Assembly (NCBI GenBank): GCA_016213105.1
Contig: JACRBN010000024.1
Span: 1 to 64,000 of the forward strand
Direction: 5' to 3'
DNA from: Chloroflexota bacterium
Lineage (GTDB): Bacteria; Chloroflexota; Anaerolineae; Anaerolineales; Villigracilaceae
DNA length: 64,000 nt
Part shown: piece after piece, positions 38,775-61,612 of the stretch
Numbering within the stretch: the stretch's first letter is position 1
How the letters are laid out: each line of letters starts with the position of its first letter
Position numbers and translations under genes: made by a program
Notes under the pieces: generated by a model
Told to the model about the DNA's origin: nothing
Seen by the model: only the letters and a program-made list of their open reading frames with translations
Databases searched by the model: none

Positions 38775-38868
38775 GGGAGTGGTTAGGTCCCGGTGGGTCT
38801 CCTGGTCTTCAAAACCTGTGGCGGGTCGCGTTGCGGGCCGCGGTGGGTTCGACTCCCATCCACTCCCG
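38775..38868 (+). tRNA. selC: selenocysteine tRNA (anticodon TCA)
   Basis: Long acceptor GGGAGTGG/CCACTCCC (8 bp), extra-long variable arm (GGCGGGTCGCG...CGCGG region), anticodon loop CTTCAAA with TCA, T-loop GGTTCGACTCC as in known SelC, discriminator G. All are tRNA-Sec traits, which implies that the organism makes selenoproteins. CCA not encoded (GCCT follows). Confidence 0.93.
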
Positions 38869-52001: not shown

Positions 52002-53345
52002 TTAAGGATAAACCCGCTTGATCGTGCGCGGGAAGGCAATCGCCTCACGGATGTGTTCGGTGCCGCAGATCCAGGTGGTGACACGCTCGGTGCCCATGCC
52101 GAATCCGCTGTGGGGCACGGAGCCGAATTTGCGCAGTTCCAGATACCACTTGAAGGCCTCCTCGGGCAGGCCCTGGTCGTGGATGCGTTTCAGCAGCAGG
52201 TCTGGGTCGCTGATGCGCTCGGAGCCGCCGCAGATCTCGCCGTAGCCTTCGGGGGCCAGCAGGTCCACGGATTTGCAGACCTCGGGGCGGCCTGGCCACG
52301 GTTCCATGTAGAAGGCCTTGACGGCGGTCGGGTAGCCGTAGACGAAGACGGGCTTGTCGAATTGCTGGGTGATGACGGTCTCGTGCGGCGCGCCGAAGTC
52401 GATGCCCCAGTCGAATTTGAGCAGGGCCTTCTTCTCGGGGTCGGTTTCCTTCTCGTACATGTCCTGGAGTATTTTGGCGGCGTCATCGTAGGAGATGCGC
52501 GGGAAGGGTGCCTTGATGTTTTCCAGCTTCGAGATGTCGCGGCCCAACGACTTGAGTTCGGGCAGGCGCTCGCGCAGTACGCGCTGGACGATGTGGGTCA
52601 GCATCTGCTCTTCGATTTCCATGAGCTGATCAAGGTCGCAGAAGGCGATCTCGGGTTCGAGCATCCAGAACTCGGTCAAGTGGCGACGGGTCTTGGATTT
52701 CTCCGCGCGGAAGGTGGGGCCGTAGCAGTAGACCTTGCCGAAGGCGAAGATGTTGGCTTCGTTGTAAAGCTGTCCCGTCTGCGCGAGATAGGCCTTGCCT
52801 TCATCGAAGTATTCGGTCTCGAAGAGGGTGGTGGTGCCTTCGGCGGCGGCGGGCGTCAGGATGGGCGTGCTCATTTCAGCAAAACCGTTGGTGTCGAGCC
52901 ACTCGCGTGTGGCTGCCATGACCGTGGCGCGGATGCGCAGGATGGCCCACTGGCTCTGCATACGAATCCACAGATGGCGATTGTCGAGCGCGAAGTCGGG
53001 GCCGTGGTCCTTGAGCGCCATCGGGTAGTCGGCTTCGGCGGTTTGCACAACCTTCAAATCCTTGATGCCGAGTTCGAAGCCACCAGGGATGCCAGGCGCG
53101 CGTTTGTCCTCGCGTACCGCGCCCGTGATGATGACCGACGATTCCTGCGACAGGCGCATGATCTGGTCGAAGAGTTCGGGGGCGAGGTCGCCTTTGAAGG
53201 CCACGCACTGCACGAAGCCCGAGCCGTCGCGCACGAGCAGGAAGCACAGCTTGCCCTTGTCGGTGCGGTTATAGACCCAGCCCTGGACGGTGACTTCCTG
53301 GCCCGCGTATTTCGAGATGTCTGAGACGCGAATGATTTCTGGCAT
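52002..53345 (-). CDS. asnS: asparaginyl-tRNA synthetase
   Basis: 447 residues. N-terminal OB-fold anticodon domain (VTVQGWVYNRTDKGKLCFLLVRDG), then class II core with RATVMAATREWLDTNGF, FRAEKSKTRRHLTEFWMLEPEIAF (motif 2) and GFGMGTERVTTWICG (motif 3). Charges tRNA-Asn directly. Since a non-discriminating AspRS and GatCAB are encoded 7 kb away, the cell seems to have both routes to Asn-tRNA. AAGGAG before the ATG. Confidence 0.93.
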   Translation of the reverse strand: MPEIIRVSDISKYAGQEVTVQGWVYNRTDKGKLCFLLVRDGSGFVQCVAFKGDLAPELFDQIMRLSQESSVIITGAVREDKRAPGIPGGFELGIKDLKVVQTAEADYPMALKDHGPDFALDNRHLWIRMQSQWAILRIRATVMAATREWLDTNGFAEMSTPILTPAAAEGTTTLFETEYFDEGKAYLAQTGQLYNEANIFAFGKVYCYGPTFRAEKSKTRRHLTEFWMLEPEIAFCDLDQLMEIEEQMLTHIVQRVLRERLPELKSLGRDISKLENIKAPFPRISYDDAAKILQDMYEKETDPEKKALLKFDWGIDFGAPHETVITQQFDKPVFVYGYPTAVKAFYMEPWPGRPEVCKSVDLLAPEGYGEICGGSERISDPDLLLKRIHDQGLPEEAFKWYLELRKFGSVPHSGFGMGTERVTTWICGTEHIREAIAFPRTIKRVYP

Positions 53346-53370: not shown

Positions 53371-53736
53371 TTATCTATTTCGTAATGATGTCATTCGGAT
53401 GCGTTGATCTTCAACCACTGAGAAATGCCCCGCCCAATCTTTTCGACTGGCAAGCGCTTGCACCGCAACCTGGGCGATATATGTCGAGGATACGGGCGTA
53501 ATGCGGAACAAAATGATGCCACAATCGGCTGGAAGTTTGGAGCGAAATGCAAGCTCACCAAAATCCTTGTCAAACGTGATGAGAATTCGTTTTTCTTCCT
53601 GGGCGCGGATTAAAACTTTGTCGTCAGCGCTTCCGCGCGCATCTTCGCGAATCCAAGCAACATCATGTCCGTTTGTGCGCAAGGCCTGCACTGCGTCCAG
53701 CGGAAAGTTCTCGTTGGCTAGAAGCCTCATTTTCAC
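53371..53736 (-). CDS. DUF5615 PIN-like toxin-type protein
   Basis: 121 residues. RLLANENFPLDAVQALRTNGHDVAWI and ILITFDKDFGELAF are hallmarks of the DUF5615 Mut7-C/PIN-like family. Overlaps the DUF433 gene by four bases; such pairs are predicted toxin-antitoxin modules. Lies just upstream of asnS on the same strand. Confidence 0.82.
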   Translation of the reverse strand: MKMRLLANENFPLDAVQALRTNGHDVAWIREDARGSADDKVLIRAQEEKRILITFDKDFGELAFRSKLPADCGIILFRITPVSSTYIAQVAVQALASRKDWAGHFSVVEDQRIRMTSLRNR

Positions 53737-53972
53737 GCCTGCGAAAGCTGAAAGGGATAAATTTTTTCGGCCTTGAGCAGGCTGGTAGCATACTTGAGAC
53801 AGGCTGAAATATCCTCATTTGAGATCCCTGGGTAATTTCTTAGGATCTCGCTTTCGGGCCAGCCCTGCGCAAGCAGTTCAACAATGAATTCCACGGCAAG
53901 GCGTGTTCCTTTGATTATGGGTTTTCCAACCAGTATTTTTGGGTCAATCACAATTCGATCCTGCCAGTCCAT
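53733..53972 (-). CDS. DUF433 antitoxin-type protein
   Basis: 79 residues. IDPKILVGKPIIKGTRLAVEFIVELLAQGWPESEILRNYPGI is the DUF433 helix-turn-helix core. Promoter: minus-strand TGCTACAAT (extended -10) about 35 nt before the ATG, with AAAGGAG. Expected antitoxin and autorepressor of the pair. Confidence 0.82.
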   Translation of the reverse strand: MDWQDRIVIDPKILVGKPIIKGTRLAVEFIVELLAQGWPESEILRNYPGISNEDISACLKYATSLLKAEKIYPFQLSQA

Positions 53973-54027: not shown

Positions 54028-54072
54028 TTCGAAACTCGATGTTCGAGCACTTCTCGAACATCGAGTTTCGAA
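54028..54072. repeat. 20-bp-arm inverted repeat after aspS1
   Basis: Perfect arms TTCGAAACTC-GATGTTCGAG (54028-54047) and CTCGAACATC-GAGTTTCGAA (54053-54072), loop CACTT. It follows the aspS1 stop but lacks a proper U-tract on that strand. Confidence 0.75.
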
Positions 54073-54077
54073 TATCG

Positions 54078-55841
54078 TTATTCCGCTATTTTAATATGCA
54101 ATTCCTTCAACTGCTTCGGCTCCACCGTGGACGGCGCATCGGCCATCACGTCGCGGCCGCTTTGGTTCTTGGGGAAGGCTATCACTTCGCGGATGTTTGG
54201 CTCGTCGGCCAGCAGCATCACGAGGCGGTCGATGCCAGGCGCCATGCCGCCGTGCGGGGGCGCGCCGTACTCGAACGCCTCCAGCAGGTGGCCGAACTTG
54301 GCCTGGATGTCTTCATCCTTCAGGCCGAGCAGTTGGAAGATTTTGGTCTGGATGTCGCGGCGGTGGATGCGGATCGAGCCCGAGGCCATCTCGTAGCCGT
54401 TGCAGACCATGTCGTACGCATCCGAGAGGATTGAGCCAGGGTCGGTGTCGAACTTGGACAAGTCATCAAGCTGCGGCATGGTGAACGGATGATGCTCGGC
54501 GTCCCAGCGCTGATCCTCTTCGTTCCAGGCGAACATCGGGAAGTCGACCACCCAGGCAAAGGCCATGGTGTCCTTGTCGGCCAGGCCGAGCTTGTCGCGG
54601 AAGATGAGGCGTAATCCGCCGAGCACCTTGTTGACGATGGCGCGGGCATCGGCGGCGAACAGGATCAGGTCACCGTCCTTGATGTTCAGGCGGGACTTGA
54701 GCGCCGCCACCTCGTCGGCGGTGACGAACTTGCCCGCAGTTCCCTTCACGCCTTCAGCGGTTACCGCTACCGTGGCCAGTCCCTTGGCCCCGAGCGACCT
54801 GGCCACCTCGGTCAACGCGTCGACTTCCTTGCGGGAGTAGTCTGCGCAGCCCGAGGCAACGATACACTTGATCACGCCTTTGGCTTCCAGCGCGCCCTGG
54901 AAGACGCGGAATTCGCTTTTGGCGAAGATATCGCTCACGTCGACCAGTTCCATGCCGAAGCGCAGGTCAGGCTTATCCGAGCCGTATTTCTCGACCACCT
55001 CGTGATGCGAGAATTTCGGCCACGGCGACGAGAGCAGCTTCTTGTGCGGAGCAACGGCGGGCAGCATCTCGGTGTAAAGCTGCTCGACCAGAACCAGCAC
55101 ATCGTCGCGGTGGACGAAGGACATCTCCAAATCGAGTTGGGTAAACTCGGGCTGACGGTCGCCGCGCAGGTCTTCGTCGCGGAAGCAGCGCGCGATCTGG
55201 AAGTAGCGATCCAGGCCCGCCACCATCAGCAACTGCTTGAGCTGCTGCGGCGACTGGGGCAGGGCGTAGAAGTGGCCTGGATGGATGCGGGACGGCACGA
55301 GATAGTCGCGCGCGCCCTCGGGCGTGGCCTTGAACAGGATCGGCGTTTCCACTTCGATGAAGCCTTGTTTGTCCATGAAGTCGCGCATGAACTTGGTGAC
55401 GCGGTGGCGCAGCACCATGTTGCGGCTCATGCGCTCGCGGCGCAGGTCGAGGTAGCGATACTTGAGGCGGATGTCCTCGTTCTCATCCTCGTCGCGGCTG
55501 ACCACAATGGGCGGAGTCTTGGCCAGATTCAGCACGGTCACCTTGCATGCTTCGAGTTCAATCTCGCCCGTGGACATCTTGGGGTTGAACTGGTCGCTGG
55601 GGCGCATCTTGACCACGCCTTCGATTTGCAGCACCCACTCCGCCTTGGCTGATTCAATGGCGTGGTGCGCCTCTGGAAAATCCGTCGGGCTGGTGGTGAT
55701 TTGCGTGATGCCGTAACGGTCGCGCAGAACGAGGAAGACCACTCCGCCAAATGTGCGGAAGTTGTGTACCCAGCCCGCCAGGGTCACGGTCTGACCCGCA
55801 TGGGCGGCGCGCAATTCACCGCAAGTGTGAGTTTTATACAT
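54078..55841 (-). CDS. aspS: aspartyl-tRNA synthetase 1 (probably discriminating)
   Basis: 587 residues, bacterial type with inserted GAD domain (~290-410). Class II motifs: [18 protein letters not shown] (motif 2) and [13 protein letters not shown] (motif 3). In the anticodon-binding domain residue 31 is Phe (RTFGG) and residue 83 is Asp (RPSDQ), not the His31/Gly83 pair of non-discriminating enzymes, so it likely charges only tRNA-Asp (inference). Start 55841 has GGAGGC upstream; the in-frame extension to 55967 translates a repeat. Preceded by a leader-peptide attenuator. Confidence 0.93.
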
Positions 55842-55858
55842 AATGCCTCCAGTGTTGA

Positions 55859-55951
55859 CGTCATTGCGAGCGAGTGTAACGAGCGCGGCAATCTCATGTT
55901 TATTGGTTACTTGAGATTGCCACGTCGCTGCTTCGCAGCTCCTCGCAATGA
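55859..55951. repeat. GTCATTGCGAG palindromic repeat between attenuator and aspS1
   Basis: CGTCATTGCGAG on the left and CTCGCAATGAC on the right, with inner GGCAATCTCA / TGAGATTGCC arms. Same family and same relative place as the copy before aspS2. Confidence 0.85.
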
Positions 55952-56022: not shown

Positions 56023-56103
56023 TCAACCAGCCAGGCTTCGCCCAACGATACGGCGGTCGTCATTATCGTCGTTGTTGTTGGCGAAGGGCAGTTGAGATTT
56101 CAT
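56023..56103 (-). CDS. aspS1 leader peptide, 26 residues, Asn/Asp-rich
   Basis: ATG at 56103, TGA at 56025-56023. Residues 9-16 are N-N-N-D-D-N-D-D; the tail ends VGRSLAG. The codon run lies between two RNA segments that can pair (CTTCGCC at plus 56080-56086 and GGCGAAG next to the antiterminator), as in trp-type leaders. Only seven bases separate TATAAT from the ATG, so no Shine-Dalgarno exists and initiation would be leaderless. The same design, with similar tail, precedes aspS2. Confidence 0.82.
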   Translation of the reverse strand: MKSQLPFANNNDDNDDRRIVGRSLAG

Positions 56104-56110
56104 GGCGGCA

Positions 56111-56118
56111 ATTATAGC
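56111..56118 (-). promoter_or_regulatory. extended -10 promoter of the aspS1 leader
   Basis: Minus-strand TGCTATAAT with TATAAT at plus 56111-56116; no good -35. It lies about 25 nt after the gatB stop, giving aspS1 its own transcript. Confidence 0.75.
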
Positions 56119-56141
56119 ATGGACGAGAGAGGACGGAAGCG

Positions 56142-57599
56142 TTACTTTTTCAACTTCTCGAACTCATCCAACAACAACTGCTTCACGGCCTGCGAATTGG
56201 CCTTGCCCTTGGTGGCTCGGGCGATCTGTCCAATGAACCATTGCAACAGGGTCTCCCTGCCGCCCAGGTAGCTGGTGACTTCCTTGGGATTGTCGGCGAT
56301 GAGCTTGATGACCATCTCCTTGAGGACGCCTTCATCGGAGATTTGTCCCAGCCCCTGCGCCTCGACGATTTCCTTCGGCGCGCGGCCGCTCTGGAACATC
56401 TCGACCAGCACGGACTTGGCGGTGTTGCCGTTGATGGTCTTGTCGAAGGCCAGATCGATCAGTTGAGCTAGGTGCACGGCGGGGACGGGGATCGCGTCCA
56501 CGCTCAGGCCGAGTTCGTTGACCTGGCGCAGGAGGGCGCCTGTCAGCCAGTTGCAGACGGTCTGGGCGCTGTCCCGCGTCTGCTTGACGACTGTCTCGAA
56601 GTAGTCGGCCAGGGAACGCTCGGAGGCCAGCAGGGCGGCGTCCTGGGGTTTGAGTCCATACTCGCGGAGGAAGCGCTCGGTCTTGGCATCGGGCAGTTCG
56701 GGCAGGTGGGCGTGGAAACTGTCAATGTAGGCTTGACTCAATTCCAACGGAGGCAGGTCAGGCTCGGGGAAGTAGCGGTAGTCGTGGGCGTGTTCCTTGC
56801 TGCGCTGGGACACCGTCACGCCGCGGGCTTCATCCCAGCCCAGAGTCTCCTGAACGATCTGGCCCCCATTTTCATAGACTTTGATCTGGCGCTCGACTTC
56901 GTAGGTGGAGGCGCGGGTCAGGGCGCGGAAGCTGTTGAGGTTCTTGATCTCGGTGCGCGTGCGGAACTCGTCGCTGCCCACGGGGCGGACGGAGACGTTG
57001 GCCTCGAAGCGCAGGATGCCCTTCTCCATGTCGCCCGCGTTGACGCCCAGATAACGCAGGATGGCGCGGATTTTGGTGGCGTAGGCCAGCGCGGACTCGA
57101 CGCTACGAAAGTCTGGCTCGGTGACGATCTCCAGCAGCGGCACGCCCGCGCGGTTGTAGTCGATCAGCGCGTGGTCGCCGCGGTGGAAGGTCTTGGCGGT
57201 GTCCTCTTCGAGATGGGCGCGGCGGATGATGATGCGCTGTGTGCCCTTGCCCGAATCAGCGGGGACATCCAGCCAGCCTTCGGATGCGATGGGCAGGTCA
57301 TACTGCGAGATCTGATAACCCTTCGGCAGGTCGGGGTAAAAATAATTCTTGCGCGCAAAGGTGTTGTGTGGGTTGATCGTGCAGTTGAGCGCCAACCCGA
57401 CCAGGATGGCCTGCTCGACGGCTTTGGCATTGATGACGGGCATCGCGCCTGGCAGCGCTGTGCAGACGGGGCAGATGTTGGTGTTGGCTTCAGGCGCGGA
57501 CGAGTAGTCGGCGGAGCAGCCGCAGAACATCTTGGAGGCAGTCTGCAGCTCGGCGTGGATTTCAAGCCCGATCACGGTTTCGTATTTGATTGAGGTCAT
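56142..57599 (-). CDS. gatB: Asp-tRNA(Asn)/Glu-tRNA(Gln) amidotransferase subunit GatB
   Basis: 485 residues. [28 protein letters not shown] start, [19 protein letters not shown] and [16 protein letters not shown] are family hallmarks; zinc Cys set CGC...CPVC present; C-terminal YqeY-like domain. Phosphorylates and amidates mischarged tRNA together with GatA and GatC. Last gene of the aspS2-gatC-gatA-gatB operon. Confidence 0.95.
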
Positions 57600-57704: not shown

Positions 57705-59168
57705 TTATCCAATCGGCGGCAATTGCTTGTGCCAGTCGGTGACCTGCTGGTAGGCATGCCCGATCTGGAACAGCGTCTCTTCGTTGAAGTGTTTGCCCAT
57801 CAACTGCATCCCGACAGGCATGCCCTGCGAGAATCCGCAAGGGACGGCCAGCGACGGAATCCCCGCGGGGTTGGTGGCGGTGACGTAAATATCCGAGAGA
57901 TACATCTCCAGCGGGTCGGCGGTCTTCTCGCCAAGTTTGAATGCCGTGGTCGGACAGGTCGGCGCGATCAGCGCATCGACTTGCTCGAAGGCCTGCTCGA
58001 AGTCCTGCCGTAGCAGGGTGCGGACTTTCTGCGCCTTGAGGTAATACGCATCGTAATAGCCCGCCGAAAGCGTGTACGCGCCCAGCATGATGCGCCGCTT
58101 GACCTCGTCGCCGAAGCCCGCACGGCGGGTTTGCAGGTATACATCGATCACATCCTCGGCACCATCGCGCACCGACAGGCCGAAGCGTGTCCCGTCGAAG
58201 CGCGCCAGGTTGGCGCTGGCCTCCGCGAACAGAATCAGGTAATAGACGGGCAGGCCGTACTTTGTGTGCGGCAGCGACACTTCCTGGATTTCCATCCCAA
58301 GTGCCTCGAACTGCTCAATGGCCTTGTGAATGGCGCTTTCCACGCCCGCTTCCATGCCCGCCACGAAATATTCCTTCGGGATGCCCAGCTTCATACCCTT
58401 GACCGACTTGCCCAGCGACTGGCTGTACTGCGGGACGGGGATTGCCGCCGACGTGCTGTCGCGTCCGTCCACGCCCGCAATGGCTTCCGTGACCGTGGCG
58501 ACGTCGTACACCTCGCGCGCCATTGGCCCAATCGAATCGAACGACGAGACCAGCGCGATCAGTCCATAACGGGAGACGCGTCCGTAGGTTGGCTTGAGAC
58601 CCGTGATGTTGCAGAAGCCCGCGGGCATGCGCACGGAGCCGCCCGTGTCCTCGCCAATGGAGAACAGTCCCATCCCCGCGGCTGCCGCAGCCGCTGAGCC
58701 GCCGCTGGAGCCGCCAGGAACACGGGACAAATCCCACGGGTTGCGGGTGGGGAAGTAGGCCGAGTTCTCGCACGACGAACCCATGCCGAACTCGTCCATG
58801 TTGTGTTTGCCGAGCAGCACTGCGCCCGCATCGGATAATTTCTCGATCACGGTGGCGTTGTACTGCGGGACATAATTTTCCAAAATCTTCGACGAGCAGG
58901 TCGTGCGCACGCCCTTCGTGGACAGGCAGTCCTTTACGCCGAACGGGATACCTATCAACGGGGTGACGTTATCGCCGTGAGCCAGCCGCTCATCCGCTTG
59001 GTGCGCCTGTTCCAGCGCCAACTCGTCCGTGACGGTCATGTACGCTTGGATTTGCGGATCGATCTTGTGGATACGATCCAGCATGGCCTGGGTCAACTCC
59101 ACGCTGCTGACCTGTTTGCTGCGCAGCATCTCCTGCGCCGAGCGCAAGGTTAAAGAATTCAAGTCCAT
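57705..59168 (-). CDS. gatA: amidotransferase subunit GatA
   Basis: 487 residues. Amidase-signature enzyme with catalytic Lys in GVKDCL, cis-Ser in GGSSGGSAAA and nucleophile Ser in TGGSVRMPAGF. Releases ammonia from Gln or Asn and channels it to GatB. Starts next to the gatC stop (0 bp). Confidence 0.95.
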   Translation of the reverse strand: MDLNSLTLRSAQEMLRSKQVSSVELTQAMLDRIHKIDPQIQAYMTVTDELALEQAHQADERLAHGDNVTPLIGIPFGVKDCLSTKGVRTTCSSKILENYVPQYNATVIEKLSDAGAVLLGKHNMDEFGMGSSCENSAYFPTRNPWDLSRVPGGSSGGSAAAAAAGMGLFSIGEDTGGSVRMPAGFCNITGLKPTYGRVSRYGLIALVSSFDSIGPMAREVYDVATVTEAIAGVDGRDSTSAAIPVPQYSQSLGKSVKGMKLGIPKEYFVAGMEAGVESAIHKAIEQFEALGMEIQEVSLPHTKYGLPVYYLILFAEASANLARFDGTRFGLSVRDGAEDVIDVYLQTRRAGFGDEVKRRIMLGAYTLSAGYYDAYYLKAQKVRTLLRQDFEQAFEQVDALIAPTCPTTAFKLGEKTADPLEMYLSDIYVTATNPAGIPSLAVPCGFSQGMPVGMQLMGKHFNEETLFQIGHAYQQVTDWHKQLPPIG

Positions 59169-59477
59169 TTATTCCTCCCCCAGCACGGTCGAGACCTTGA
59201 CGTAGCCGTCTTCGCTTTCGGGCGCGTTTTTCAGAAATTCCTCGCGTGACATCGAAGGCTGGGCCACGTCCTCGCGCAGCACCATGCTGGCGTGGATGAC
59301 CTGCGTGGCAGGCGGCGTGTCGCTCGTGTCCACTTCATTGAGCAGGTTGAAATAATCGATGATGGCCGAGAACTGCTGGCTGAAGCCCTGCGCCTCTTCG
59401 TCCGTGATGCCGAGGCGTACGAGATAAGCCACATGCTTCACCATGTCTGCGTCGATTTGAAAAGAGTGTTCGGTCAT
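59169..59477 (-). CDS. gatC: amidotransferase subunit GatC
   Basis: 102 residues. VKHVAYLVRLGITDEEAQGFSQQFSAIIDYFNLLNEVDT is the GatC core; it wraps around GatA. AAAAGGA before ATG. Second gene of the operon, after aspS2 and a palindromic repeat. Confidence 0.92.
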   Translation of the reverse strand: MTEHSFQIDADMVKHVAYLVRLGITDEEAQGFSQQFSAIIDYFNLLNEVDTSDTPPATQVIHASMVLREDVAQPSMSREEFLKNAPESEDGYVKVSTVLGEE

Positions 59478-59566: not shown

Positions 59567-61330
59567 TTATTTTTTCAATTTCAATTCCTTCAACTGCTCA
59601 TCCTCAGCATACGACGGCGCATCGGCCATCACATCCCGCCCCGACGAGTTCTTTGGAAAGGCAATCACCTCGCGGATGTTCGGCTCGTCGGTCAGCAGCA
59701 TGATCAGACGGTCGATGCCAGGCGCCATGCCGCCATGTGGCGGCGCGCCGTACTCGAAGGCCTCCAGCATGTGCCCGAACTTGTACTGTGCCTCTTCTTC
59801 CTCTATGCCCAGCAATTCAAACACCTTCGACTGGATCTCGCGCCGATGGATGCGGATCGACCCCGACGCCATCTCGTAGCCGTTGCAGACCATGTCATAG
59901 GCGTCCGACAGGATCGAGCCAGGGTCGCTCTCGAACTTGTCCAGGTCGCTCAGGCGCGGCATGGTGAACATATGGTGCGCCGCATTCCATTTCTTTTCCT
60001 CGTCGCTCCACTCGAACATCGGGAAGTCGATCACCCACGCGAAGGCCATCGTGTCCTTGTCTACCAGTCCCAGCGCATCGCGGAAACTCAGCCGCAGCGC
60101 GCCCAGCACTTTGTGGACGACCCTGGCCTCCTCCGCCACGAACAGGATCAGGTCGCCGACGCCCGCGCCCGTCATAGCCTGGACTTGGGCCAGCTCCTCC
60201 TCACGGATGGACTTACTCCCGCTGCCCTTTGGGCCTTGGGCTGTCACCGCCAAAGTGACCAGAGTCCCCGCCCCGAGCTCTTTGGCCGTTAACGTCAGCG
60301 CTTCGAGTTGGCCCCGCGAATATTCCGCGCAGCCTGGCGCCACGATGCACTTGATCACGCCGTTCTTCTTCGCCAGCGCGGACTTGAAGACCGAGAACTC
60401 CGTCCTCGCGAAAGCCGCGCTGACGTCGGTCAACTCCATGCCGAAGCGCAGGTCGGGCTTGTCCGAGCCGAAGCGCGAGACGGCTTCCTCATAGGTCAGA
60501 CGCGGCCAGGGAGACTGGAGCAGCCGCTTCTCGGGAGCAATCTGGGGAATTATCGTCGTGAATAACTTTTCGACCAAATCCAGCACATCGTCGCGTTCGA
60601 CGAAGGCCATCTCGATGTCCAGTTGCGTGAACTCGGGCTGACGGTCGCCGCGCTGGTCTTCATCGCGGAAGCAGCGCGCGATCTGAAAATAACGCTCGAT
60701 CCCGCCGACCATCAACAACTGCTTCAACTGCTGCGGCGACTGCGGCAGCGCGTAAAACTGCCCAGGGTACACACGCGACGGCACGAGGTAGTCGCGCGCG
60801 CCCTCGGGCGTGGTCTTGAACAGAATCGGCGTCTCGATTTCGAGGAAGCCAAGCTGACTCAAATAGTTACGCATGAACAAGACCACCTCATGCCGCAGGG
60901 TGAGATTCTTGAGCATCTTGGCGCGGCGCAAATCGAGATAGCGATATTTTAGCCGCAGATTCTCATCCGTGCCATTTTGGCCGTTGTTGACCGAGAAGGG
61001 CAGGGCCTTGGACGGGTTGAGCACCTCCGCCTCGCGCACGGCGATCTCGATATCGCCGTTGGACATTTTGGCATTCTCCATGCCCGCGGGCCGATGCTCG
61101 ACCACGCCCGTGACCTGTACCACCCATTCCTGGCGCGCCTCGTCCAGCACCTCGTGGGCGCGCGGCGTGACATCGGGTGCGGCCACGAGTTGCACCACCC
61201 CGAAGCGGTCGCGCAAGTCGACGAAGTGTACGCCGCCGTGGTCGCGGTAGCGATGTACCCAACCTGCCAGCGTCACCGTCTGGCCGATCATCGTGGATGT
61301 GACTTCCCCGCATGTGTGAGTCTTGTACAT
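59567..61330 (-). CDS. aspS: aspartyl-tRNA synthetase 2 (non-discriminating signature)
   Basis: 587 residues, bacterial type with GAD insert. Motif 2 [18 protein letters not shown] and motif 3 [13 protein letters not shown]. Residue 31 is His (RDHGG) and residue 83 is Gly (PAGMEN), exactly the pair that marks non-discriminating AspRS such as that of Pseudomonas aeruginosa. It should therefore charge both tRNA-Asp and tRNA-Asn with Asp, and GatCAB, encoded next, would convert Asp-tRNA-Asn to Asn-tRNA-Asn. GGAGG precedes the ATG. Controlled by an upstream Asn/Asp leader peptide. Confidence 0.94.
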
Positions 61331-61346
61331 ACCTGCCTCCAGTTTT

Positions 61347-61440
61347 CGTCATTGCGAGGGTGCGAAGCACCCGAAGCAATCTCATACAACCACGAACAGG
61401 GGATTGCTTCGTCGGCCCTGCGGGCCTTCTCGCAATGACG
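61347..61440. repeat. GTCATTGCGAG palindromic repeat between attenuator and aspS2
   Basis: CGTCATTGCGAGG (61347-61359) and CTCGCAATGACG (to 61440), with inner GAAGCAATC / GATTGCTTC arms; 94 bp. Confidence 0.88.
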
Positions 61441-61447
61441 AGGTAAT

Positions 61448-61479
61448 AAAAAACCGCCCAGCGGATGTCCGTTGGGCGG
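61448..61479 (-). terminator. attenuator terminator of the aspS2-gatCAB operon
   Basis: Minus strand CCGCCCAACGGA, loop CA, TCCGCTGGGCGG (11 of 12 pairs), then TTTTTT. Its 5' arm CGCCCAAC (plus 61471-61478) is complementary to GTTGGGCG in the leader frame (plus 61523-61530), forming the alternative antiterminator. Confidence 0.88.
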
Positions 61480-61506
61480 TCGGTTTGACGTGTGTGTAAC
61501 TCTCTG

Positions 61507-61593
61507 TCAACCAGATGTGCTTCGCCCAACGGCCGCGCTGCGGTCGTCATTATTGTTGTTATTATTCAGGGCGAAAAGAAATTCTAGTTTCAT
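61507..61593 (-). CDS. aspS2 leader peptide, 28 residues, six Asn then two Asp
   Basis: ATG at 61593, TGA at 61509-61507. Residues 10-17 are N x6, D x2; the tail is VGRSTSG. TTCGCCC (codons 7-9) and GGGCGAA (codons 23-25) bracket the run and can pair. A ribosome stalled on Asn/Asp codons would cover the first segment and free the second to form the antiterminator, while one reaching the stop would mask the second and let the terminator form. The ATG is 10 nt past TATAAT, so initiation is almost leaderless. Confidence 0.85.
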   Translation of the reverse strand: MKLEFLFALNNNNNNDDRSAAVGRSTSG

Positions 61594-61603
61594 ATTGGAC
61601 GGC

Positions 61604-61612
61604 ATTATAGCA
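61604..61612 (-). promoter_or_regulatory. extended -10 promoter of the aspS2 leader
   Basis: Minus-strand TGCTATAAT with TATAAT at plus 61604-61609, identical in its nine bases to the aspS1 promoter; no recognisable -35. Confidence 0.78.

Follow-up and report, generated by a model that had tools for sequence, protein, structure and literature searches.

An Asn/Asp leader peptide ahead of aspartyl-tRNA synthetase genes in Chloroflexota, very probably a trp-type attenuator

The question of a mixed Asn/Asp codon run

Why should a short reading frame that consists in large part of asparagine and aspartate codons precede a gene for aspartyl-tRNA synthetase? Attenuation of synthetase genes by leader peptides is known, for example for pheST. 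The case considered here is from an uncultured Chloroflexota bacterium (GTDB Anaerolineae; Anaerolineales; Villigracilaceae; assembly GCA_016213105.1, contig JACRBN010000024.1), of which positions 1-64,000, the window, were analysed. An earlier note, made from the sequence alone, had described an extended -10 promoter, a 28-codon frame with six consecutive Asn codons and two Asp codons, three mutually complementary segments and a 12-bp terminator with six U ahead of aspS2. All of these are present (Table 1), but a second helix, P1, had been missed, and a second leader in the same window, ahead of aspS1, was not reported. The note had also proposed that shortage of Asn-tRNA or Asp-tRNA drives trp-type attenuation, which largely holds on the comparative evidence below, the effect on expression being inferred.

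The leader is very likely a ribosome-mediated (trp-type) transcription attenuator that senses Asn-tRNA and Asp-tRNA. This reading rests on the identity of the codons, covarying alternative helices, a fixed stop, codon content that follows the regulated gene, and diverged leaders of the same layout. Codon identity, the alternative helices with their conservation, the gene association and the geometry of the leader are shown; it is inferred where transcription starts, that the leader is translated, that uncharged tRNA stalls the ribosome, and how expression is affected.

Two leaders in one window

The paralogous leader (56119-55964, minus strand) lies between gatB and aspS1, 5.5 kb from the aspS2 leader, and has the same layout. 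Three marks of trp-type attenuation are found: a short ORF in which codons for the regulated amino acid form a run, 2:3 and 3:4 helices that are mutually exclusive and conserved, and an intrinsic terminator with a U tract before the structural gene. In the aspS2 leader the 3:4 terminator comprises 12 bp, as 9+3 with one mismatch (-21.8 kcal/mol by folding), and its U tract ends about 117 nt from the start of aspS2. The folding of this leader is better than that of shuffled sequences (z = -3.4), with 3 of 200 shuffles equally good. The pattern as a whole exceeds chance, because there is a second copy in the window and there are about 100 copies in relatives.

Table 1. Leader features and associated genes of the window
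Feature	Position	Strand	Remarks
aspS2 leader, extended -10 promoter	61604..61612	-	TGCTATAAT; predicted start ~61597
aspS2 leader ORF, near-leaderless	61507..61593	-	28 codons, MKLEFLFALNNNNNNDDRSAAVGRSTSG; ATG at 61593; TGA stop ends 61507
aspS2 leader, regulatory codon run	61543..61566	-	6 Asn + 2 Asp
aspS2 leader, segment 1	61570..61575	-	TTCGCC (Phe-Ala codons ahead of run); complementary to segment 2
aspS2 leader, helix P1	61529..61547	-	between Asp codons and 5' end of segment 2
aspS2 leader, segment 2	61521..61532	-	CCGTTGGGCGAA; antiterminator partner of segment 3
aspS2 leader, segment 3	61469..61479	-	CCGCCCAACGG; common to antiterminator and terminator
aspS2 leader, segment 4	61454..61464	-	CCGCTGGGCGG; terminator 3' arm
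aspS2 leader, U tract	61448..61453	-	six T; intrinsic terminator
aspS2, aspartyl-tRNA synthetase	59567..61330	-	TIGR00459, 737.6 bits
gatC	59169..59477	-	TIGR00135
gatA	57705..59168	-	TIGR00132
gatB	56142..57599	-	TIGR00133
aspS1 leader, extended -10 promoter	56111..56119	-	TGCTATAAT
aspS1 leader ORF	56023..56103	-	26 codons, MKSQLPFANNNDDNDDRRIVGRSLAG
aspS1 leader, P1	56060-56045		
aspS1 leader, segment 2	56047-56036		
aspS1 leader, segment 3	56000-55991		
aspS1 leader, segment 4	55984-55974		
aspS1 leader, U tract	55973-55964		
aspS1, aspartyl-tRNA synthetase	54078..55841	-	TIGR00459, 741.8 bits
asnS, asparaginyl-tRNA synthetase	52002..53345	-	downstream of aspS1; TIGR00457, 449.5 bits

The ATG of the aspS2 leader lies 10 nt past the -10 hexamer, which leaves a 5' UTR of a few nucleotides without a Shine-Dalgarno sequence; no evident -35 box was found in this promoter. 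An in-frame ATG farther upstream, at 61605, overlaps the -10 box, making the 28-codon start the likelier one. Such spacing is common among the collected leaders: TGCTATAAT stands a short distance ahead of the ATG in 94 of 103 copies, and the ATG follows the hexamer by 6-10 nt in 77 copies and by about 20 nt in 16. In this genome 31 sites fit the pattern TGNTATAAT-N4-16-ATG vs 6 for a reversed control pattern, and many of these sites begin ordinary long genes, so that near-leaderless starts are probably normal and common in this genome, as far as can be inferred from a sequence pattern. Among these sites an amino-acid run is found only in the two leaders.

Distribution and putatively regulated genes

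A DNA search recovered the leader in 12 of 61 relatives. A covariance model, R1, built from 15 leaders, has matches in 111 of 152 genomes from the GTDB family of this bacterium. The earlier note had named a covariance search among relatives as a check of its proposal, and both the peptide and the pairing are indeed present in close relatives; in some family members the leader is degenerate or absent. Outside that family R1 found no copies among 396 genomes of the class, a null that limits sequence similarity only; diverged leaders were found by layout (see below).

The collected set comprises 103 distinct leader copies, which are followed by aspS in 96 cases and by asnA (asparagine synthetase) in 7. 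Where the sequence after aspS extends far enough, gatC is present in 40 cases and asnS in 33, the two sets overlapping. Only 7 of the 152 family genomes contain asnA, and a further leader copy ahead of this gene is found in the same 7 and nowhere else. The genome studied here and that of a congener (G001) each have two leader copies because each has two aspS genes. In the window the aspS2 leader is followed by aspS2, gatC, gatA and gatB, in that order. The regulon of aspS2-gatCAB proposed in the earlier note is thus too small, as it must be extended by aspS1 with asnS and, in relatives, by asnA. The route to Asn-tRNA through gatCAB that the note implied also needs amendment: both AsnRS and a GatCAB-linked AspRS are encoded by this genome, and gatCAB is therefore not the sole route.

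Codon identity in the run

In the run of the 96 aspS leaders, Asn codons (AAT 366, AAC 181) far outnumber the Lys codons that share their first two bases (AAA 2, AAG 3), and Asp codons (GAT 162, GAC 109) likewise outnumber those of Glu (GAA 1, GAG 1). Both T and C are in use at the third position. What is conserved in the run is codon identity and not base composition.

An Asp codon is found in the run of all 96 aspS leaders vs 3 of the 7 asnA leaders (Fisher p = 8e-6, uncorrected for phylogeny). Four of the asnA leaders have no Asp, two have a single Asp, ahead of the Asn run in one and at the end of that run in the other, and one is mixed. The codon content of the run thus tends to match what the regulated gene makes.

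Alternative helices and the position of the stop

P1 covaries, 102 leaders giving 67 double-change cells where shuffles give 31 +/- 5; one P1 pair is A-U in 61, C-G in 16 and G-C in 14. The antiterminator 2:3 is paired in 97.9% of cells, with compensatory exchanges present, and the terminator 3:4 in 99.3%, with U-A, A-U and C-G exchanges. The GGGCG/CGCCC core of these two helices is nearly invariant and accordingly provides little covariation information. Segment 1 reads TTCGCC or TTTGCC in 79 of the 83 leaders that have Phe-Ala, and the U tract is conserved in an alignment of 106 matches.

Thirteen leaders, belonging to two genera or more (g17 and g9), read segment 2 in another frame and there encode YRWAKPC instead of VGRSFAG. 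A compensating stop stands at one and the same position in all 13 and in none of 87 in-frame leaders. Since these leaders keep segment 2 and all stop in the same place, it is very likely that the RNA of segment 2 is conserved for pairing and the stop position for translation, an inference from sequence comparison.

Ribosome position and folding competition

A simple occlusion model was used, in which the ribosome covers up to 12 nt past the first base of the A site. When a run codon occupies the A site, the mean probability of 2:3 in the nascent RNA is 0.98; with the ribosome at the stop codon, 2:3 falls to 0.000 and 3:4 reaches 1.00. In 94 of 100 leaders the run stops 1-2 codons short of the switch point. 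The model thus predicts, in silico only, that segment 2 becomes free when the ribosome stalls on a run codon and is blocked once the ribosome has reached the stop.

With the ribosome stalled, the complete terminator still prevails over 2:3 at equilibrium (mean P 0.66 vs 0.34), and timing during transcription must therefore decide. Co-transcriptional timing is generally assumed to decide in other attenuators as well. In ribosome-free nascent RNA the model gives a P(2:3) of 0.01 for the aspS1 leader and 0.99 for the aspS2 leader, from which it is possible that an untranslated aspS2 transcript reads through. Termination of the untranslated RNA by way of a 1:2 helix, as expected of a trp-type attenuator, is thus predicted for the aspS1 leader but not for that of aspS2.

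Leaders of the same layout in other families

In other families of the order, leaders unrelated in sequence but with the same layout lie upstream of aspS, for example MKIWRFGNPDNNNNNNAADDLHRAVC and MHANLLNNNNEDNNALFRAGLTLLGH. An automatic layout test, which ignores amino acids, was positive in 12 of 20 genomes from these families vs 0 of 1000 shuffles, and in 5 of 76 other class-level regions, a count that includes one Thermoflexales record twice. Asn makes up 15.1% and Asp 7.9% of the residues in the 12 layout-positive leaders. By this test most other families of the class have no leader at aspS, nor was one seen at aspS in the two bacterial-type cases examined in family f13 of the order. Several f13 genomes (loci L357-L364) have only a short synthetase-like match of about 445 aa in place of a bacterial-type AspRS, and no leader.

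Four diverged leaders of different families (L228, L229, L333 and L341) carry an ILIVD/ILVVD-like motif ahead of the Asn/Asp codons, a hint, and no more, that the diverged leaders may have a common ancestor.

Proposed mechanism

RNA polymerase would start a few bases ahead of the leader ORF, and a ribosome would load directly at the near-leaderless ATG. When Asn-tRNA and Asp-tRNA are both charged, the ribosome would reach the stop and cover segment 2, 3:4 would form, and transcription would end ahead of aspS. A shortage of either one in charged form would make the ribosome stall in the run, leaving segment 1 and P1 unpaired and segment 2 free; segment 2 would then capture segment 3 once this is made, no terminator would form, and aspS and the downstream genes (gatCAB, asnS) would be transcribed. 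A device of this kind with an Asn-only run would govern asnA in relatives.

The mixed codons are probably best explained by joint control of the charging of Asp-tRNA and Asn-tRNA, because the regulon is larger than aspS2-gatCAB and includes aspS1 with asnS, and asnA in relatives. Dual codons would suit operons that provide Asp-tRNA as well as Asn-tRNA. A bolder reading, which we also regard as likely, is of an Asn/Asp regulon in much of one Chloroflexota order, controlled by near-leaderless dual-amino-acid attenuators with an Asn:Asp ratio tuned per operon: mixed for aspS with gatCAB or asnS, and mostly Asn-only for asnA. One RNA would then integrate the charging of two tRNAs.

Alternative explanations

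Being rich in A and flanked by structured elements, the run could be merely an unstructured spacer, and any regulation could be exerted by a bound factor or by folding of the RNA, without codons being read. This is very unlikely: Lys and Glu codons are equally A-rich yet nearly absent (AAR 5 vs AAY 547; GAR 2 vs GAY 271), Asp codons are lost from the run ahead of asnA, and the reading frame and stop position are kept. That both codons of the run are of the NAY type raises the alternative that the leader senses queuosine status, as tRNAs that carry queuosine read the NAY codons of all four amino acids Asn, Asp, His and Tyr. Yet the run of the aspS leaders holds few codons for His (24) or Tyr (18) compared with those for Asn (547) and Asp (271), and only Asn/Asp genes are targets, so that this possibility is all but excluded.

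A T-box riboswitch, or a similar RNA that binds uncharged tRNA directly, would have a precedent in the two-codon T-box of Clostridium acetobutylicum (Saad et al. 2013, described in PMC4052509), with the same target genes and a dual-tRNA logic. Against it, neither the T-box nor any other Rfam family is found at or near the gathering threshold, and the leader has a conserved reading frame, a promoter-proximal start and a fixed stop; we consider a T-box very improbable. Equally hard to sustain is a nascent-peptide arrest leader of the TnaC or erm type, in which the peptide and not a shortage of charged tRNA would stall the ribosome. A short conserved peptide does precede the attenuator, and Phe-Ala ahead of the run is common, but the run varies freely in length and order, there is no conserved arrest-site motif, the C-terminus is read in two unrelated frames, and the diverged families have only Asn/Asp richness in common. 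Attenuation by codon reading remains the preferred explanation.

Relation to known attenuators

No Rfam family matches the leader, and no description of an Asn/Asp leader before aspS, asnS, asnA or gatCAB was found in the literature searched, which excluded subscription papers. This is consistent with the statement in the earlier note that no aspS/gatCAB attenuator with mixed Asn and Asp codons was known. A Shewanella aspS prediction (PMC2659441) was considered as a precedent and rejected, as it concerns only an unspecified tRNA synthetase leader.

The E. coli trp, his and pheST attenuators resemble the Chloroflexota leader in that an ORF contains codons for the regulated amino acid, antiterminator and terminator exclude each other, and charged tRNA exerts the control, which for the Chloroflexota leader is inferred. 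The Chloroflexota leader differs in having two amino acids in one run, a near-leaderless start, a stop that lies beyond segment 2, and aspS-gatCAB, aspS with asnS, and asnA as targets; the ribosome-free readthrough that the model makes possible for the aspS2 leader would be a further difference from trp. The uORFC-8-2 motif upstream of cysS in Rhodobacterales, for which ribosome-mediated attenuation has been proposed (PMC8632094), is likewise a uORF with tandem cognate codons ahead of an aminoacyl-tRNA synthetase gene, but it reads one amino acid (Cys) in another phylum, and a sequence relation has not been shown. The two-codon T-box of the C. acetobutylicum transamidation operon also places genes of tRNA-dependent transamidation under two tRNA inputs, but binds tRNA-Asn and tRNA-Glu directly, without a leader peptide.

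If the proposal is correct, Asp and Asn, with their charging/transamidation pathway, join the amino acids sensed by leader-peptide attenuation, and one leader reads two tRNAs. No described example of leader-peptide attenuation was found for this phylum. The near-leaderless start, if true, would mean attenuation without a Shine-Dalgarno site. The natural swaps (asnA vs aspS, two frames over one RNA, and the diverged leaders) offer a good test bed for the evolution of attenuator codons.

Neighboring genes and elements

The two synthetases of the window differ in the motif VHRYRDHGG, where AspS2 has His and AspS1 has Phe. His at that position of AspRS marks the non-discriminating bacterial enzyme. 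On this residue alone, with the activity untested, AspS2 may make Asp-tRNA-Asn for GatCAB. Co-transcription of aspS1 and asnS is possible but uncertain because a DUF433/DUF5615 pair (53371-53972, minus strand) and a perfect 20-bp hairpin (54028-54072) lie in between. Such pairs are toxin-antitoxin-like; the hairpin, 3' of aspS1, could be a terminator or a repeat.

REP/MITE-like palindromes (GTCATTGCGAG...CTCGCAATGAC) occupy 61345-61441 and 55850-55946, between each attenuator and its aspS. Used as a query, this region has more than 40 matching places genome-wide, and in relatives other repeats fill the same slot. A 6S RNA gene (RF00013; 50665-50843, minus strand) lies directly downstream of asnS and is also present at the aspS-asnS loci L157 and L141, suggesting a conserved neighborhood. 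Elsewhere in the window is a selenocysteine tRNA gene (38775-38867, plus strand; RF01852, 70.4 bits).
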